Shown piece after piece: positions 24,101-63,630 of a stretch of 64,000 bases of DNA (positions are counted from its first letter, which is position 1; each line of letters starts with the position of its first letter). Where the stretch lies: assembly GCF_026151205.1 (NCBI RefSeq), contig NC_087077.1:16716983-16780982 (forward strand), in the 5' to 3' direction. The position numbers and the translations under genes are program-made. The notes beneath the pieces were generated by a model. That model did not search any database. It was not told the DNA's origin and saw nothing but the letters and a program-made list of their open reading frames with translations. The DNA is from Bolinopsis microptera. Its lineage: Eukaryota; Ctenophora; Tentaculata; Lobata; Bolinopsidae.

Positions 24101-27100
24101 TTATCCGCCAAAAGTGATCAAATCGCATGAAACGCGGAGAAAAATGCTTTTCAAAAAAACTTAGTGAATTTTTCGTTTCAAGAGTACTTCAATCACCAAT
24201 ATTTGTAGTTGGAGTTCAGTAAATCGCGGCAGATTTTAGTAATCAGGAATTACTAAGTGGAAAGGTATGAAACTGAAAAACGTTAACCATACGATATAAG
24301 AGTTTCATAACTAATTACAATACAGCCTTATCGATTTTCACAGAAACTGCACCAATGGCACAGTCAAGATCGAAAGACGAAACGATAGCCTGCTGTACTA
24401 TCATTTTATTGACTTCAATGATGAATCAGTGGGGTTAAGATAATCACATTTGTAATGAATAAAACCTCTCTGTACCATCAATTGTGCTAATCTAAACCGG
24501 CCTACCTGGATTACCAGACCTCTTCTTTTCCTCAACAATCAAACCAAGTTGTTCATATAGTATTTGGTGGGCGATGTAAGTACTTATCGAGCTGTATTCA
24601 ATCACAATACGACACAATACGTGTATATTATATGGCTCTTAATGAGGTTTATGAAACGCTTAATACCGTGAGAAACCCGGTATAGACTATAGAGACGTTT
24701 TACAGTTTATCACGAAAACGTATACTTGGCCTCATGGCTCATTTACAGTTCCAAGAAGGCAAGAACAGACCAGGGAAACTAAGGAACAGCCAGATCTAGG
24801 AAGCAAGTGTAAATACACCTTCCAACATCTACTGTGGCTTGTTTTGTATTGTACTGCATACCGCTTCATTTGCTATGCGGTATAAAATCACCCCCATATG
24901 TCAGGGTCGGCTAAAAGTAAAATCAACAAGGGTAACATACGGGCAAGGATAAGATTTAGATACGAGCGTCGGGCAAGGGGTAGTAAAGAACCGGTAATAA
25001 TTCATTCAGTAAAATGTTCCACGAGGGCCATAATATAATATACACGTATTGCATTGTGATTGAATACAGCTCGATATGTACTTACATCGCCCACCAAATG
25101 CGATATGAACAACTTGGTTTGATTGTTGAGGAAAAGAAGAGGTCTGGTAATCCAGGTAGGCCGGTTTAGATTAGCACAATTGACGGTACAGAGAGGTTTT
25201 ATTCATTACAAATGTGATTATCTTAACCCCACTGATTCATCATTGAAGTCAATAAAATGATAGTACAGCAGGCTATCGTTTCGTCTTTCGATCTTGACTG
25301 TGCCATTGGTGCAGTTTCTGAGAAAATCGATAAGGCTGTATTGTAATTAGTTATGAAACTCTTATATCGTATGGTTAACGTTTTTCAGTTTCATACCTTT
25401 CCACTTAGTAATTCCTGATTACTAAAATCTGCCGCGATTTACTGAACTCCAACTACAAATATTGGTGATTGAAGTACTCTTGAAACGAAAAATTCACCAA
25501 GTTTTTTTGAAAAGCATTTTTCTCCGCGTTTCATGCGATTTGATCACTTTTGGCGGATAATTTTTTTTTTGAATTTTCGAAATTTTTCAAGTCTCGAAAA
25601 AAAATGTAAGTGAAAAATTTTCAAAGTTTTTCTAAAAACTACTTTTCTGCGTGTTTTAAGCTATTCCGATCATTTTGAGCCAATAAAAAAATTTTAGAAT
25701 TTTGCTAATTAGCTAATTGATAATTATCCAATTAAATGATTATCTGACGTAAAAATTGCTAGAACAAAAGTTTTTCTTCATGGTAATATAAACACACTCG
25801 ATTGATCCACAACCTTTTACGATGTTCACAACTAAAGATATTCGACAAACAAGAAAGGTGGTAAAAAGTGGTAAAGTGGCAAAAAGTGGCCTTAAGACAC
25901 GTGGAAAAGTTTGGAAAAGTTGGTCAGCCATAAAGGACATCTATTAGGACTGAAAAACGTCAAAAATCCTTTGTAAGCTTTGTGTGTCGGCAGATCGATT
26001 TTTTCAGACGGATCTGTCTGTACTACTAGATTCATTGTTATTTGACGTATTTTAAGGGCCCTCCTAGAGTCAATCTATTTAATGGTTCACGCCAATCGTT
26101 AAACAAAACGTCGAACTATCATACAACTGCAGACAGTCGTGATCGTTCACCATTTTTCCCATTGAAACCGTTGTAGTGGCCATAATTTGATAGATAAATA
26201 CTGAATTATTAGCGACAATGTCGCTAATTGGCGTCATCTAGCGTCATCTAGCGTCATCTAGCGTAATCTATCATCATCTGGCGATATTTCACGCTAGATG
26301 ACGCTAGATGACGCTAGATGACGCTAGATGACGTCATATGTCGAATTTCAACTATCGGTAAAGGTCCAATAATTGAATTAATTTACCCTGAGTTCTCCTT
26401 TAGCTGCTCCTTGATAGTTCGTAATCGTTAGCATCTGTTCTTGCTCGAACTGAAAACAATATATTTTACGTTATTCTTTATAAAGATGAGTTTAACAAAC
26501 ATCAGATTTACGTAAAGATCTCAAAACTAAGAGTCTAGTTGAAACATAGTTGGAAGGAGTATGTCAAAGCCTTCATAATCCCTTTCGACTTCAGTGCTGC
26601 CCTTTTAGTGTTTGGAATGGGCTGACGCAAAACCTGACAAATTTATATAATATATTAGTGAGCTAGTGGTCAAAAGTCAATTATAACTGATTATAAAGTA
26701 AATGTATGATTTATTAACAAAAAGTACTCGTACATAAATATGCCAGTATTTGCGGTTATTCAGCACCCGTCCAGAAGCCTATACATTTTTCTATCAAAGG
26801 TTACCAAAATCAAAGTTGGAAACCCTCCGAAGCTTAGACCATTTCGGGGTCTTTTTAAGGTTCAGAAGCTGATAGGTTAACTTTCCGATATAGGATTTGG
26901 TTGGCATGGTGCTTCCTGGAATCTTAACGAATGGATTTAAACGCTGCAACTGTAAGCCTTTTCACCAACTGGTTTCCTAGAACTTAAAAATATGTCCAGA
27001 GACGACTGGACTGATATCTCAGTATGCTTTTCTGAGTTTTAGGGTTTCATTTAAAACGTAAAATAACTTTTATACATTTTCACCTCTTAGCTTAGTCATT

Positions 27101-30100: not shown

Positions 30101-33100
30101 GGTACTATTTCTCAAAATAACTTGATTTCTGATAAAACATTGTTTGTCGTTAAATGCAATCTTTGTTAGCTTGTAAAGAGGTAGGAGAAATGTGATCAAA
30201 GTTTCAATTTCATAACTTTTACCAGTCATGACTATGATAGTACTCTAATTTCTCTAAATATTTCTTGATCTTCTGAGCTTAGGGGTTAAACGAAAGCGTC
30301 ATAAAATGCTAAGCAAATTATAATCTTAGCTTTATTTTTAAGAACTACTTTAAAAAGTAGCATTGATTGAGGTCATCATAGCGTCACTTTCTTAAATTAT
30401 TTGTCATAATACGGAGTTCCTTGACCCGGTTATAACTAGGATGGTTAATTAATATCCCTGATATTTAGGATGTCTTTATTAATCAGACAATATGGACCAG
30501 TGTCCAGTATCCAGTGACCACCATGTGATGATACTACACCTATAAAGTATAGTGAACCATTTTACCGTCCATTTCTAGAGAACACTCAACACATAGCCAT
30601 GGAATGGACTCACCGGTTTTATTCGATTTTAGGTCGCGTACTACATATCTCCGTTTAAAGTACGGGAATTTGATTAAAATTGACAGCATATCATTTGTGA
30701 GTAGCTAACGAGCAGAAAAATCAGGAGAACTTAGAATGGCATAAGAAGATCGTTGCATCACACATAAGATCTAAGAACTTTCTGAAGTTGCTTATTACCA
30801 GCATTGATCTTATATCTTTACATTAATTAAACTTCAAGACAGTGTCATTCTTAAAGTCTGAACGAATACTTCAAAATGTTTATTCCAGAAAAGGGTCTAG
30901 TCCTCGCCACTATTCAATTCTATTTAAATTCTGTCATCAAGGTTTTCCAAACATAGCTGACTCATGACTGTACGTCTATACAACGTGTTTCATTACCAAA
31001 ACAAGGACCAAAAAAAGTTTGAGCAAAATTTCTGAGAGTGAGATACTATGTACTACGAGGATGTGAATTGTGAGCAGGTTTGGTTAAGTATCGAATCCAA
31101 TCCTTTTCGCTGGGTAAAATTGGTCACGTTATCTATCAACTAATTGTGCCTCGTGAGTCGTGACTACCGCTTACAATAGTTAATAGTACTATGTTTACAG
31201 TATGCACTGAAGGGGTATCCTAGGAAGTTTCTTGAACTTTTAACAGGTACCCCTCCTCATTTAACCCTCAATTAAGCTTCCTATCATTCGGCTGTGTCGA
31301 CCGAGGAGATCGCATAGATCCAATGGATCCTTAGCTACTCCCTAGACTAGGCGACACTGGGATTCGAACCCTGAACCTTCTGCGCAGAAGGCGGATGCTC
31401 TAACAACTAGGCCACCTAGCCCCCTTACAATGGTTATTACAGTTTGAGAGTGCCAGTACCGCAGTGGGATCGAGAGGAAATGAAGACAGTAATTATATCC
31501 ACCAGCGTGCGCTTTTTCGCATAGCGGGCTCTCACCAGCCCGCTGTCAAAGGGCCCGATATCTCTACAGCCCGCTCATGATATAGCCCGCTAACAAGTGA
31601 CATTTAATTTGACCAGTAGCAATATAGCCCGGAGTTCTTTAAAATATTTTCAGTTTCTGTATCGTCTCCATGTGAAATTCTATAAGACAACAACTTACAA
31701 GTTACTTAGAACTATAGTTGAAACAGGTTTAATTCATTAACGATGAATTCAATTGCAATAATCGTACAGTGAGCTAATTAGTGTAGTTTCTGTTTCTAAA
31801 TTCCCACGGCAATATGCAGTGGATGTAAAGAATGTTAAATGTATCAACTGTAAACTCTGAGCTCACCCTCTATCGGACGCTATATCAGTTGTCACGCAGT
31901 TTGCCATGATTGGCTCATAATTAACACGTGACACTGACACACTGTTACTATGGTTACCAAATTCGTGGAGACGTCCAGACTAAATTCTAAGCCGGTGATC
32001 TCTATTATAGTATCGATAATTGTTTTGTGTTTACCATTTCAGTTGTGTTTACCATTTTCATTTCACTAGTTCAGTCGATAAATCTTGAAATGTAGGCCGA
32101 AATTTTACGTGTTATTCTATTGTGTTCCCAAAAGATATTTTGCCCTGTTTTTGTTTTGAAACTGCCATTTAAATTAATGTTATGAATTTGATCTTTAACT
32201 TTCATATTAAATGTCCATGATCAGACTGTGATCTCGAGCTCTCTGGGTTACTACTTTTGATTGTCCAGTCACTCAGTAGCTGCTACAGAAACTGTAGTAA
32301 CTGGTTACCCGGGTAACCCTGGTTACCCAGGTAACTGACATGATAATGACAACTAATTTGGTAGTAGAGGGCTCTGTGGCGACTGGTGGTGCTTGTTCTG
32401 GTTCCAGGGAGGGTGAGGGGAGAGAGGTAGAGAAGTATAGAGGAAGAGTAGGAGAGAAAGAGAGGGAGAGGAGGAGAGAGGGAGATAAAGAGAGAGAGGG
32501 ATAGAGGGAGAGAGGGACGTAAGGAGAGTGGGAGAAGGAGAAAGGAAGATAGGGAGAGAGTGAGAGAGGGATAGAGGGAGAGAAGGAGAGAGGCCTATAT
32601 TTTGATCGTTTACATTAAAATATGTACCTGAAACAATGAGCTGAAACATTGTTTGATAGCAGCCGGTTTTACGTTCTATAGTCAGTCATTTTGGCCTGTT
32701 TTACATCTTAAACCAAAAGCAACATGATTTTTTCGTAACTTTTCTGAAATCTTGTACATTAATTTTTTGTGATTGTTGCAAACTGAAGCTTCGTGATAAA
32801 CACCCGCTGATGGATATACACGATATCATTCCTCACCTCGAGGGCGGCACTATCTTATTAGAAACATGTTGAAAGTAAAAGTGAAACTAAATTAAAAACG
32901 GATCTCTTGAAGAAACTTAAGACAGTAAAAACTAATATCTGTAAGAAAAAGCTCACGCTGGTGGATATAATCCACATCACCTCGACCCGCGGGCGGAAAA
33001 ATCGTATAGCACTCGGGCCCGATGGGCCCTCCGTGCTATACGAAAATATGTCCTCCTCGGGCTAGCGCCCTCAGGGACATATGAAATATTGCACGCGCGT

Positions 33101-36100
33101 GCGCGTGCAATATTTTGTTCCGCCCGCGAGTCTCCGGTGATATGTATATATATTAGAACATGTATTAGAACATCATCGATATGTGGACCCCTATTTTACA
33201 GGATTACCCAAATCTTGACAATGTCATAAATAGCAATCTTCTGATTAGGGAAACGGCCAATATCTAATGACGACTAGCTAGATGTTATTGCAATATTCAG
33301 AACCGTTACGACCGCCTCCGCAGCTGTGTTAGATTATAGTTATAATATATTGAATATTTAAATTTAGCCGTTTTATACATTTAACTTTAGATAAAACTTG
33401 TCAAAAATGTAAGGTTTTGCTTGCCCAGTTGCTCAATGGGTGTTTTAAACCTAGTTACTACACATTATAGGTGCTATTTTATCGCTAAATGATGTGCGTT
33501 GTGCAGTGTAAAAATATATTATATAATACGCAACTTATCACAGTTTGGGGCACTCTGTCTCTTTCGACACTATTATCGTATTATATATTCAGTTAATTAT
33601 CCCAAGACCCAAGTTATAACTCAATAACTTGGGATTATTATGGACGTGTCTCTAGGAACATTATTATATAATTAGATTTTACCTTCCAAATATTTATCAC
33701 TAAGTCGACAGACCAAGCTGTTGAACAGCTGCATTAGATTATGATTACCATGTTAACAGCTAAAATATATTAACATAATATTATTCATTCATTCATCTGG
33801 TGGGTCAGCATGGTCCATTCTCATTCAGCTCACTGAATCAAGGCAGTAAGGTAGTAGTGTCAAAAGTCGGGGTGAGATGTGCCGAGAGCAGGAATTGAAC
33901 CCACGACCTCCCGAAAACCATTCAGGTGCTATACCATTAAGGGGTCCGGGACTCTAGGGCGTAAGACTCTAGGGCGTAAGGCTTCAACCCTAACCCTAAC
34001 CCTAACCCTAACCCTAACCCTAACCCTAACCCTAACCCTAACCCTAACCCTAACCCTAACCCTAACCCTAACCCTAACCCTAACCCTAACCCTAACCCTA
34101 ACCCTAACCCTAACCCTAACCCTAACCCTAACCCTAACCCTAACCCTAACCCTAACCCTAACCCTAACCCTAACCCTAACCCTAACCCTAACCCTAACCC
34201 TAACCCTAACCCTAACCCTAACCCTAACCCTAACCCTAACCCTAACCCTAACCCTAACCCTAACCAGCCGTAGACTCTCACGCCGTAGAGTCTTACGCCG
34301 TAGAGTCCGGACCCCACCATTAAGCTATCTTGCCGACAACTCAATTCCAACAATTCACTAATTGAAACGCAAAGTGTAAAACTATTTAAGGGGAACTCTC
34401 ACTTTTTCAGCACTTTTATAATGATATGGTTTCACAATATCCAGGCTGGATACCGTACGTGTAAACTTGCATTGTTGAGAGGTTGATTGTTTCCTGATGG
34501 TCTGATATAGTTGCCTGGTCAGTTTCCGTCAACGTTCTTTTTCTTGGCTATAGCCGTACAATTTCTCTGGCTTCGACTTGGCAAATACTTCTATTCAAAT
34601 ATCTTATAAGTTGCCACACTTTGTAAATTGTGGCCAAATTTAGTGCTTTCCGGTGTTTATTGTTTAATCACACCTGCTTTTAAATCCCAAATGCTTTTAA
34701 ATCGCACCTTTTTTACGCAAATATATAATATTAACTTCAAATACAGAAGTTTCATTATCAAAATTTACTGTAAGACTAGACGTTTACTTAATGAAGGATC
34801 ATGGATTATTAATTAGCGCGTTATATTTATTAATACTTACCACGCGGCACGCGTTCCTTTTAGAAAATGTTAAATTTAGTCACATGTATCACAATCTACT
34901 TGATACAAAGTACACAAATATTTTGGGGTCAAACTTTCACATATTATTATACCGGAAGTGCAACCGAATCGCCGATCCAGGAATGTTCAAAAAATTAGGA
35001 TTTTGTAACTTCGTTTATGAAAGGTTTTAGAAGTAAGCAACATACAAAAATTACCGGAATGAGTGTGGGTGAGTCAAGGTTTCAAGGTCCCAAACCCTTT
35101 AGTTTGCGAGCTATAAAAGCCAAACAATGTGACCCGAAACCAACAAAACTTAAGATTTTGTAAATTACCGTGGAACAAGGGGGTTTTCTCAGTAATGTGA
35201 TGTTAATGATATTGTGTATATCATTAACATCACAGAATGCTGTTTTAAGCAGTATATAGAACATGTTTACCAGGTCCATGATAACATATAGTTAATATAG
35301 ACCACTTCCAGTGACTAACCGGACATTAATCTTAAGGATGTGCTCCCATCACAGCTATAAGTAGTCATCCGTAGAAAAGCGAATAGGATTAGCCCATTGT
35401 AGCTTTTTCTTCTATTATATAATATAGAGCAGTTGGTAGGAATAGCCCACAGCTGTTCCCTGTCTTTTATTAACAGCCCCAAGCACTATAAGATCTGGGA
35501 GTGCGAGGCTGTCAGGCTCCTAGTTAGCAATTATTGTGTAAACTATAGCCACTCAAGAGAAAACTTAAGAAATTTTGAAAGGGTTGTTAAAGTTATACAA
35601 CACTAGATAAATGAAGTCATAGAATCGTAAATTCTTGGGTTTGGAATTTTGTTTGCGTTTTACTCGAAAAATGAAGGGTTTCGGACATTGAAACCTTGAT
35701 TAGGCCCCACTAACATGCTCATTCGGGTGATTACTGATCATTTGTTGTTGTTGTTGTTGTTTTTTAACCAATCTGGTTCCGAAACACTCATGACTCGCCG
35801 CATGTGGTTCGTGAGCTTCTCAAACCCTTCATAAGCGAAGTTAAAATTCTTAAATTTGTTCGGTTTCACGACACATTTTTTGGCTTTTAAGGGGACCGGG
35901 GGGGGGGGGGGGGGGGTCTTCGTCAAAATTATCTCGAAATTGATTTCATAGTTGTTTCTGGTAGAGGGGAGTGATATCTATCAACTGCTTTTGGTCCGAT
36001 GGAAAAATATTGTTCCTAGACGAAATTAGCGCCGTTCAAAGGTCAGCGCTTATGTGTAATTGTATTGCGCAAGCGATTTACAATCCTGATTTCAAGACCC

Positions 36101-57944: not shown

Positions 57945-60900
57945 GTATGGATTTTTGTCGATAACTTTATACTAAATTTGCTTATATAGACACTTATATA
58001 AAGGCAATATGGCCTTTATTTATTTTATCTTGATTTGGTCTTTAATTTATTATTGGTGAGTCACCAATGAAAATATTATTGGTGACGCACAATAAAAATT
58101 ATTCAAATATTTCAATGAAAATCCCGCTACATTAAATATCTATCGATAACATTTTCTGTAACTGTAAAGACAATTGATTAACAGAACTTTTTAGCAGAAA
58201 TCCGGAAAATCAGCAAAAAGAAAGAAAGGAGTATTCAAGATGATGTATATCACTCTCCTTTCCAGTAACTGTGCTATGTTACTAGCTCCAGTTATTCGCT
58301 ACTGGGCAACCCAACTTGAAGTTTATAACGAGGTAAGACTTGGTGATTTGGAAAATCTCTCCCACATACCTCATAATATTTTAAAATGTATTCAGGCTTT
58401 AGCTAAAAAATCCATTTATTATATTCTTATATTGCATCGGAAACAAAAATTTCCAAAATTAATCTTAAAGTCAAAACTTATACAGATTTTGAAAGATTTG
58501 CATAACATTATTAACACTACTGTCTTAATAAAGCTAACATTAGTAATAATAAATGATAATAACACAGATTTCCCTCAGTTGTGGTGTATACTGATAAGCT
58601 ATTTAAGTTGGATAAGTTGCAGTGTTAACGTCTGCTCAATACTTCTCATCAGTATAGACAGATTCCTAGCTGTTATGAACCCATTCAGATACGTTCAGCT
58701 TATGAAAGCAGGTAATTACATATTTTAATTAATTAACTAATTATCTATATCCTCTTTATTTGCATTAAATTTTACCCATTACTGAGTGATTTAGTTGGTT
58801 TTTGTGATATTTAGTCGCCCAAGCACTTGTTCCGTAAATATTATAACCTGGCATGATGATCGAGCTGAAACCTGACTTCAAGTTCCACGTGCATAATGAC
58901 AAGTTGCACGTGCATAATGACAGCTATTATACGAGCACTGACGTAAACCCTCTTCGCACGTGAAATAGTTGTAAGATAAACCTGGTATTTTCTTATATCA
59001 AGCTGGAGCTGAACTTCTGATTTAAGGCCCATTTCATTATACATGATTAATTACAACTGCTCGCGTATGTGATTTTTCTGTCAGAACACCGCGGCAGGTC
59101 TTACACTCTAGCTTTAAAAAAGTTGAAATACCATCACATCAAGTGCCATCACGTGGATAAGTGAATGGTGCTTTTATTACAGCAGAAGCCATGTAACCGT
59201 AACCCAAGCAGCTTAGTCACGGATAAGGCCTTTAATTTGAGATTACAAACCCAAGTTTTAATATTGTATAATTCTTTCTAATTGAAAGACAAATCATAGT
59301 TATTTATTTCAGGTAAAGTTATTGGACTTCAGATAGTTTTTATGGCGTGGAGTTTTATCATGCCACAGGTTGCGGGAACGAAAAGCGATATGAGTGAGTT
59401 GTACGATCTATCTAAAATTAATATTAATAATACTAGTAACTAATTACAATTAATATTAATCATACTAGTAACTATTAACTAATTACAATTATTATTTATA
59501 ATACTAGTAACTAATTACAATTAATATTAATCATACTAATAACTAATTACAATTATTATTATTACATATCATAATCAATTATACGATGCAACCCAACGAA
59601 TCTATTGAACCTCAACCTTGATGAGGTGATTATTATAAATATAATTGATTTAAAACAACTACCCGCAGGATACGAATACATCAATGAGTTAAACTTCTGT
59701 TTACCAACTGATAACAAAGTATTGTTTCACGCTTGGTACCTAGTATCCTATATATTTCCTGCTGCTGTGGCAGTGTCCCTGAACGGATTCATCATGAGAT
59801 ATCTGGGTAATTATACTTATTTTGGTTGTTTTTTTGCATCTACAACCCCCAGCTCCTGTTTAAATCATGACGTATGCACGTGGGCACTAGACTAGGTGAG
59901 GCTGAACTAAGAGGGCCCAACTGTTTAAATCATGACGTATGCACGTGGGCAGTGGACTAAGTGAGGCTGAACTAAGAGGGCCCAACTATATAATCCCAAC
60001 TTCAGAATTCATAACTGTGTAATGGTTTTAAAACATTTTCATGAAGTCAATAATACCACTCTAATAACGGCGGAGATATTTCGAACAAAGATATTTCGAA
60101 CTGAGTATTGACTCAGACTACGACGATCAGTTTTTCGCCGTCATTACATCCCCCATCCCTCAACCACAGTTGGTTAACAGAGTGTCTCCCCTCAGTTCGT
60201 AGATTGTCAGTTTTTACTGAGAAGATGGAAACACGAAGACAGACCATGGAGAGTAGTAGAAGTGGTAATAGTAACGGAGGATCAACTATTAACGGGAAAC
60301 CTTCCCAAGATTCCAACGGCGGTTACAACTTCTCCAAACTAACTGATAATGCTTGGAGGTGAGAATTCTATTGAATTATTTTCACTGCTGGGATTTCTGC
60401 TGATTTTTAACATATTGTTTTATCTTCTGAAAACACGGCCTTTCAAGCATGCCTGAATAAGATCACCCTTTGATAATCTCAAATAAATGAGTCTTTATCA
60501 AGCCATAGGAGAAGGTTCTCTTTAGCCTGGGGTGAGTTCGCACTTAATTTGGAAGATTCCACTGGATCACTCAAACGTAGAGTCTCCGGACAATACAGAA
60601 GAATCTCTGATTTATCCTCAAATGGTAGCTTGCGAAATAATCAGAAACATGATAGGGATAGCGAGGGGACAGCTTTGGGTTCTGAACAGGAGAGGTAGTT
60701 AAACAATGTCATCCAGGGATGAGAAAGATGTAGCATGGCATGCTGCATGATGATAGTTTTATGTTGCTAGATATCTGTGAATAAATTGAATTCCCGAGGA
60801 ATCGATTCACGATTGGTTGTTGTCATGAATAATTGTTATGCTAAAGAAATGAATGATCAGTGGATACCGATATATTGGATATATTGGATCGTGTTGATAA

Positions 60901-63351: not shown

Positions 63352-63630
<279 letters not shown>

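Follow-up and report, generated by a model that had tools for sequence, protein, structure and literature searches.

Interstitial telomeric arrays are usually taken as scars of chromosome fusion or of telomerase acting at breaks. The short interstitial telomeric sequences described at double-strand breaks are perfect or nearly perfect TTAGGG arrays with microhomology at their junctions, and microhomology at the break sites has been described in mammals for such repeats, which are ascribed to telomerase (PMC2246262). In the available text of two reviews, an origin of interstitial telomeric arrays from transposable elements is named only as a proposal (PMC9693754, PMC6410037). Tandem arrays of other kinds are carried or generated by non-autonomous inverted-repeat elements, such as the lepidopteran (GTCY)n elements, Xmix/Xstir from Xenopus, and miDNA4 (cited in PMC9659126). 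The Tm1 elements of root-knot nematodes (Mutator/Foldback) hold composite terminal inverted repeats (TIRs) made of 13-15-bp tandem repeats, produce target-site duplications (TSDs) of 8-10 bp, mostly 9 bp, and include MITE-like members (MITE, miniature inverted-repeat transposable element) alongside transposase-encoding members of the Phantom subclass with FLYWCH and MULE domains (PMC3169594). The subject of this report is F1, a 374-bp element (C6:16750924-16751297) lying in a stretch of 64,000 nucleotides (C6:16716983-16780982, hereafter the window) of the 264.65-Mb assembly of the ctenophore Bolinopsis microptera. F1 is very probably a non-autonomous MITE of the Foldback type, belonging to the Mutator superfamily (Phantom/Tm1-like), with an array of the hexamer CCCTAA as its cargo.

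F1 shares with Tm1 both the composite TIRs and the mostly 9-bp TSDs; however, Tm1 has another TIR sequence and another host, and its main text reports no telomere-type array (PMC3169594). The (GTCY)n, Xmix/Xstir, and miDNA4 elements resemble F1 in being non-autonomous elements with inverted repeats and a tandem array, whereas the part of the source that cites them (PMC9659126) gives them units other than the telomere hexamer and leaves interstitial telomeric cargo unmentioned. Compared with the sequences inserted at breaks (PMC2246262), which resemble F1 in the purity of their arrays and in their junction microhomology, the array of F1 sits between TIRs and moves by transposition.

The window copy reads GGGTCCGG...CCGGACCCC. 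Its tandem array of 280 bp, to which Tandem Repeats Finder (TRF) assigns a period of 6, 46.7 periods, and a 100% match, holds 46 exact CCCTAA units (33988-34263) with 0 differences in 276 bases from a perfect array, and adjacent units (two or more) occur nowhere else in the window. Both ends, which flank the array, are imperfect TIRs made of 15-bp subrepeats (TRF), and their outer portions (33942-33980 and 34277-34315) form a 39-bp inverted repeat at 85%. The element strand is predicted to fold into a stem whose loop is the array (z = -8.25, equalled by none of 100 shuffled sequences), and the open reading frames (ORFs) listed over the 374 bp are translations of repeats only. The first-pass annotation, made from the letters of the window, had proposed an element with inverted ends and 46 exact CCCTAA copies, which TRF and the inverted repeat bear out. 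It had also described an exact duplication of 8 bp: the duplication is exact, whereas its length is 9 bp (ACCATTAAG), the earlier eight bases being the first eight of the nine, and this additional base sets the start of the element at 33942. The presence at this locus of a mobile element with a perfect CCCTAA array is confirmed by observation.

A genome-wide search with the TIR pattern returned 112 forward and 111 reverse matches (223 in all), against 2 and 1 (3 in all) for the reversed control. The counts of F1 copies given here are lower bounds, and because the copies read came from an array-containing query, their make-up is not that of a random sample. End pairing over 91 loci (loci are designated by L numbers) gave 70 pairs in 69 loci; 8 of these are internal to long copies, and without them 62 short elements remain. 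The left and right ends can be told apart in most copies by GGGTCCGGGACT on the left and GGGTCCGGACT on the right, L034, with the short end form on both sides, being one exception, and the number of 15-bp subrepeats varies from copy to copy. With the element boundary set as in the window copy, TSDs of at least 8 bp flank 42 of the 62 short copies (27 of 9 bp, 14 of 8 bp, and one within a TG microsatellite), and these 42 represent 39 distinct strings. Other copies, differing duplications, and variable numbers of units were what the earlier annotation expected from a search with the ends, and all of them were found. Being short, TIR-bearing, non-coding, and present in many copies, F1 is a MITE. 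At two other loci, L045 (C1:932768-933171) and L046 (C13), the 15-bp TIR subrepeat of F1 has grown into a minisatellite, in which no CCCTAA array was seen.

The window copy is inserted in a short interspersed nuclear element (SINE). When the insert and one TSD copy are removed, ARAGORN at a relaxed threshold detects a minus-strand tRNA-like sequence in the joined flanks, one of three matches of which the other two look implausible. Since this support is weak by itself, the assignment to a SINE relies on homologues. The search with the joined flanks gave 64 first-look candidates, of which 40 were scored; the resulting 44 matches include that of the window itself. Of the 44, 21 span query 26/27, the insertion point, in one alignment. 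Some of the 21 are closely spaced (C3, C4) and possibly local duplicates, and the best show 89% identity over query 1-177 and 1-176. Five further matches, the window's own aside, have their start close to the insertion point, at query 26-31. Empty SINE sites do exist, and the insertion into the tRNA head of a SINE, as first proposed, stands.

The composition of the arrays in different copies shows how they spread. Array statistics were taken over the 54 of the 70 pairs with at least three CCCTAA units (42 of the GGG subfamily, 11 of the CGG subfamily, and one unclassed), the other 16 being the 8 pairs internal to long copies and 8 short copies that fall below this number of units. Among the 42 GGG arrays, the variant CCATCA occurs in 40, CCCAAA in 40, and CCCTTAT in 35; the 33 copies that contain all three hold them in identical order without exception. 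TSDs accompany 32 of the 42 GGG copies, 29 of them distinct. Such shared variants are unexpected if fresh telomeric arrays had been inserted independently at each locus, and consequently the array has moved together with the ends. In addition, none of the 54 short copies has more than one hexamer in the opposite sense, so that the orientation of the array is fixed relative to the left TIR. The CCCTAA array travels as cargo of the F1 element, and the variants common to copies with different TSDs bear out the transposon cargo proposed in the first-pass annotation.

These data also bear on two explanations that need no transposon. Repair by telomerase, known for short mammalian interstitial telomeric sequences with microhomology at the breaks (PMC2246262), could have inserted the array directly where the chromosome had broken within the SINE, with the inverted ends incidental. 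An array of that origin would stand without TIRs at a unique break site, whereas the window array has TIRs, an exact 9-bp TSD, and dozens of relatives with inverted ends at other loci, and its variants are shared across different TSDs. This origin is contradicted at the window locus and is highly improbable for it, but the same process may explain the first array of the ancestral element. A relic of chromosome fusion, or an assembly join, is practically out of the question, as the array has a single orientation within a 374-bp unit bearing TIRs and a TSD, SINE copies elsewhere span the site, and matching units are found at many loci. The repetition of the same architecture at dozens of loci makes an assembly join in particular an unlikely cause.

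The superfamily of F1 can be approached through its long relatives, which have TIRs as in the short copies and lack the array. L040-L043, L054, and L058 measure about 930-960 bp, and L047 is split by an insertion resembling a long interspersed nuclear element (LINE). An exact 9-bp TSD was found in all seven of these copies, with 6 distinct strings; L054 (C1:16518675) and L058 (C9:440221), on different chromosomes, have the TSD GTACAAGTA in common, and one of them looks like a segmental copy. In Pfam, the ORF of L043 matches FLYWCH (PF04500, E 1.6e-5, exceeding the gathering score, below which a shorter fragment alone falls with E 0.017), with no hAT family and no MULE part, and the FLYWCH fragment recurs at eight places with 94-100% identity. 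A cousin family holds FLYWCH and MULE in one ORF of 501 amino acids (aa) (MULE E 2.7e-12). This family starts with GGG and has a TIR with 15-bp subrepeats; its member L082 is 65% identical to F1 in the FLYWCH finger, and the copies with both ends readable, L083 and L084, have 9-bp TSDs, read by eye, with an extra G beside that of L084.

Elements of the hAT superfamily produce TSDs of exactly 8 bp, and the earlier reading of an 8-bp duplication had suggested an assignment of the window element to hAT. Under the boundary used, the TSD is indeed 8 bp long in 14 of the 42 short copies that have one. Nevertheless, 9 bp predominates among the short copies, is exact in every long copy checked, and is also the length in the window, and the ORF of a long copy contains a FLYWCH finger, a domain that a structurally similar cousin joins to MULE; a hAT MITE is thus very unlikely, and that assignment is given up. 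For Mutator elements, the reported range is 8-11 bp (PMC6446971, in the part available), typically 9 bp, which is what short copies, long copies, and the window copy exhibit, and a composite TIR of short tandem subrepeats, as in the Phantom/Tm1-like Foldback elements, is present as well. The 9-bp TSDs, the composite TIRs, and the FLYWCH finger together point to a Foldback MITE of the Mutator/Phantom type. F1 fits a Mutator-type MITE, and its anatomy points to a putative place within Phantom.

Three candidates for an autonomous element were discarded. The 4.2-kb copy L047 (C12) and the 6.2-kb copy L087 (C1) are really elements of about 950 bp with LINE-like insertions inside, whereas in L088 the left TIR and the FLYWCH fragment lie 3 kb apart, with no ORF of more than 110 aa in the stretch listed. 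The LINE-like ORFs, reverse-transcriptase-like by eye, comprise 905 aa at L039 (which goes with L047) and 1035 and 561 aa at L087.

F1 is accompanied by other array-bearing families. In a sample of long perfect arrays, the matches listed (100 of the 877 overlapping 24-unit matches) fall into six sites. L048 lies beside an F1 end, the only one seen there. L050-L052 belong to a foldback family, F2, with ends GGTACCGCGACAATTGACCC and cores of CCCTAA, CCCTGA, and CCCAGGA, both ends being in view only in L052. The arms of F2 (members L050, L051, L052, L129, and L130) are a minisatellite; its TIR gives 314 genome-wide matches with at most one mismatch, against 0 for the control, and a TSD of 8-9 bp was seen by eye in one copy, L052. 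L049 (344-1801) represents a third family, F3, in which the array lies between arms of at least 208 bp at 98%. The F3 copies L049, L127, and L128 hold perfect CCCTAA arrays of 88 to 274 nt and share flanks of more than 600 bp (40 of 214 first-look candidates were scored, and the part of F3 covered stops short of its ends). At the sixth site, L053, no enclosing inverted repeat was found apart from a 17-nt pair separated by 2.2 kb.

A survey of interstitial arrays used a pattern in which an edge comes directly after four CCCTAA units. Some arrays escape this pattern by its design; it matched 236 edges, against 0 for the control. The matches listed, 100 of the 236 edges, define 88 loci from C1 to C7:392 kb and are a sample. 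Within 1 kb of an F1 TIR lie 29 of these loci, 20 lie within the same distance of an exact F2 TIR, and 8 have an F3 junction (57 in total), the chance of a TIR within 1 kb being 0.0017 per locus for F1 and 0.0015 for F2. Four of the remaining 31 loci were read: L129-L131 belong to F1 or F2, with ends altered or out of range, and L053 is the site described above as lacking an enclosing inverted repeat. Searches for positions of inner F1 and F2 motifs placed no further loci among the matches listed, those for exact F2 covering C1 and C2 only. F1, F2, and F3 hold 60 of the 88 surveyed loci and the other 28 are unassigned, so several inverted-repeat families together hold most of the interstitial CCCTAA arrays sampled.

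The junctions between TIR and array point to how F1 may have acquired its cargo. In the long parents, the left TIR reads ...GGGCGGCGCCCTA and then CAAAACAGG (GGGCGACGCCCTA in L043), while in the short GGG form ...GGGCGGCGCCCTA is followed by ACCCTAACC; on the right side, the parental CCCTAGAGTC is retained, two bases (GA) past the last array unit. This comparison with the parent places one GGG breakpoint at CCCTA, a five-base in-register match to the array, and the other beside one. The junctions of the CGG form are different (CTCTA/ACCCTAA on the left and CCC/GCCGTAG on the right), which suggests that this form arose from a second array capture event.

The same motifs could have given rise to the array as an ordinary microsatellite, by slippage from the CCCTA/TAGGG pentamers of the TIR subrepeats and with neither telomerase nor telomeres involved. 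The TIR units of the GGG subfamily do contain TAGGG/CCCTA, the array lengths clearly change, blocks of other hexamers (CCCTTA, CCCTGA) are present, and the chromosome ends read hold no TTAGGG arrays. Nevertheless, CCCTAA is also found in two families with unrelated ends, and slippage alone leaves this threefold recurrence unexplained, making such an origin unlikely. As a broader alternative, breaks in DNA transposons of this lineage might have been healed repeatedly with telomeric DNA, at least three unrelated families (F1 probably twice) having captured arrays independently to become the main source of interstitial telomeric repeats; this is a real possibility, although one that falls short of being probable. 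The arrays may also help the elements that carry them, as array-bearing copies outnumber array-less ones among the F1 copies read, which were found by an array-containing query.

The perfection of the window array had been taken as a sign of recent spread, an argument that the comparison of ends and arrays does not support. In the GGG subfamily, array lengths are a multiple of 6 in 38 of 42 copies, 108 being the commonest. L099 and L100 share their TSD and align over 1195 bp with 1 mismatch and one gap, and read as a single insertion later duplicated within C6; their arrays measure 120 and 114 nt. The F3 copies L127 (C10) and L128 (C9) are identical over 330 and 350 flank bases and have perfect arrays of 88 versus 118 nt, that of L049 reaching 274 nt. 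Measured against a hand-made subfamily consensus, the window copy has 5 differences in the 97 positions of its ends, versus 0 in the 276 of its array (Fisher P = 0.001), and L014 has 8 differences in 91 in its ends and 1 in 174 in its array (P about 0.001); the significant contrasts are those of these two single copies. L016 has 0 differences in 97 in its ends and 42 in 291 in its array. The purest arrays of the CGG subfamily are not found in the copies with the best ends, and the divergence of ends and arrays shows no significant correlation over 11 CGG copies (Spearman -0.41, P 0.21). Runs of variant hexamers beside CCCTAA, 25 CCCTTA in L016 (C7:2473614) and 117 CCCTGA in L050, suggest local amplification.

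The pure array beside diverged ends and the change in length between nearly identical copies indicate that purity reflects turnover of the array. Array length changes faster than the flanks mutate, and the perfection of an array is not usable as a clock. The insertion in the window does seem fairly recent, the intact 9-bp TSD being a better sign of this than the purity of the array.

Taken as a transposon-borne array, F1 would have the following history. In an internally deleted ancestor, CCCTAA repeats would have taken the place of the middle, joined to it at or next to TIR motifs resembling CCCTA. The array itself, at a guess from these motifs, might have been filler made when a transposon break was abortively repaired, either by telomerase or through copying of telomeric sequence, and from then on it would have travelled as part of the element. 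The composite TIRs are most likely recognised in trans by a FLYWCH-MULE transposase, which would mobilise F1 and leave TSDs of 8-9 bp, mostly 9 bp. After insertion, the array would gain and lose whole units, presumably by slippage or unequal exchange, and be homogenised faster than the flanks mutate.

Several observations weigh against this account. Clean end pairs were not obtained at 22 of the 91 loci, and a TSD of at least 8 bp is lacking in 20 of the 62 short copies. No autonomous F1 with an intact transposase was found among the long copies examined, and the proposed route by which the array was acquired is read from the junction motifs. TTAGGG is presumably the telomere repeat of this species, as in animals in general; however, no TTAGGG/CCCTAA array was found at any of 20 chromosome ends (L132-L151; 10 chromosomes, 150 bases each), where a single hexamer is present at two, and the chromosome ends are probably unassembled. 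Finally, the left end of the window copy has 3 mismatches to the hand-made GGG consensus and 6 to that of CGG, while its right end has 2 mismatches to the CGG consensus. The window copy looks chimeric, GGG-type on the left and CGG-type on the right, which would mean that recombination has also shaped it.

Table 1. Features of the F1 insertion and its SINE host (positions within the window).
Feature	Position	Strand	Basis and remarks
Left TSD copy	33933-33941		ACCATTAAG; same as 34316-34324
Whole element, family F1	33942-34315	+	Inverted ends, TSD, relatives with matching ends at many loci
Left end: terminal GGGTCCGG and 15-bp subrepeats GACTCTAGGGCGTAA	33942-33985	+	TRF 33950-33980, period 15; nearest to GGG subfamily
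CCCTAA array, 46 perfect units	33986-34265	+	TRF 100% match; distance 0/276
Right end, inverted 15-bp subrepeats	34266-34315	-	TRF 34267-34307, period 15; nearest to CGG subfamily
Right TSD copy	34316-34324		ACCATTAAG
SINE host, larger part (rest of tRNA-like head and body)	33748-33941	-	Genome-wide SINE matches, query 27-220
SINE host, start of tRNA-like head	34325-34350	-	Query 1-26; 21 matches run on into the rest

Other features of the window lie apart from the insertion. A small, foldback-like inverted pair of 10-bp tandem repeats (26231-26333) has GCGTCATCTA units facing ACGCTAGATG units. Another tRNA-like sequence (31349-31421, minus strand; Rfam, 36.3 bits) gave no match to the target SINE in a local comparison. 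A fragment of a rhodopsin-family receptor (7tm_1, E 1.7e-9) occupies 58195-58725 on the plus strand, and a 277-base run of G (96%) at 63352-63628, followed by TCC repeats, is possibly a trouble spot of sequencing or assembly.

Among the listings from a full-text literature in which most subscription journals are missing, no earlier account was found of TTAGGG arrays within elements bearing inverted repeats. Tandem arrays of other kinds are already known in MITEs (cited in PMC9659126, as far as that source was available). What is new is that several families have the telomere hexamer as their mobile cargo and together contain most of the interstitial arrays sampled. The transposon route of interstitial arrays can be followed directly here through the TIRs and TSDs, the empty sites, and the array variants common to many copies, and the locus adds a further case in which the purity of an array misleads about its age. 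The F1 copies also offer a system for asking whether mobile telomere repeats at a distance from chromosome ends are subject to the action of telomere proteins, of telomerase, or of fragility. If most interstitial arrays are transposon cargo, their use as markers of chromosome fusion would be unsafe in such a genome.

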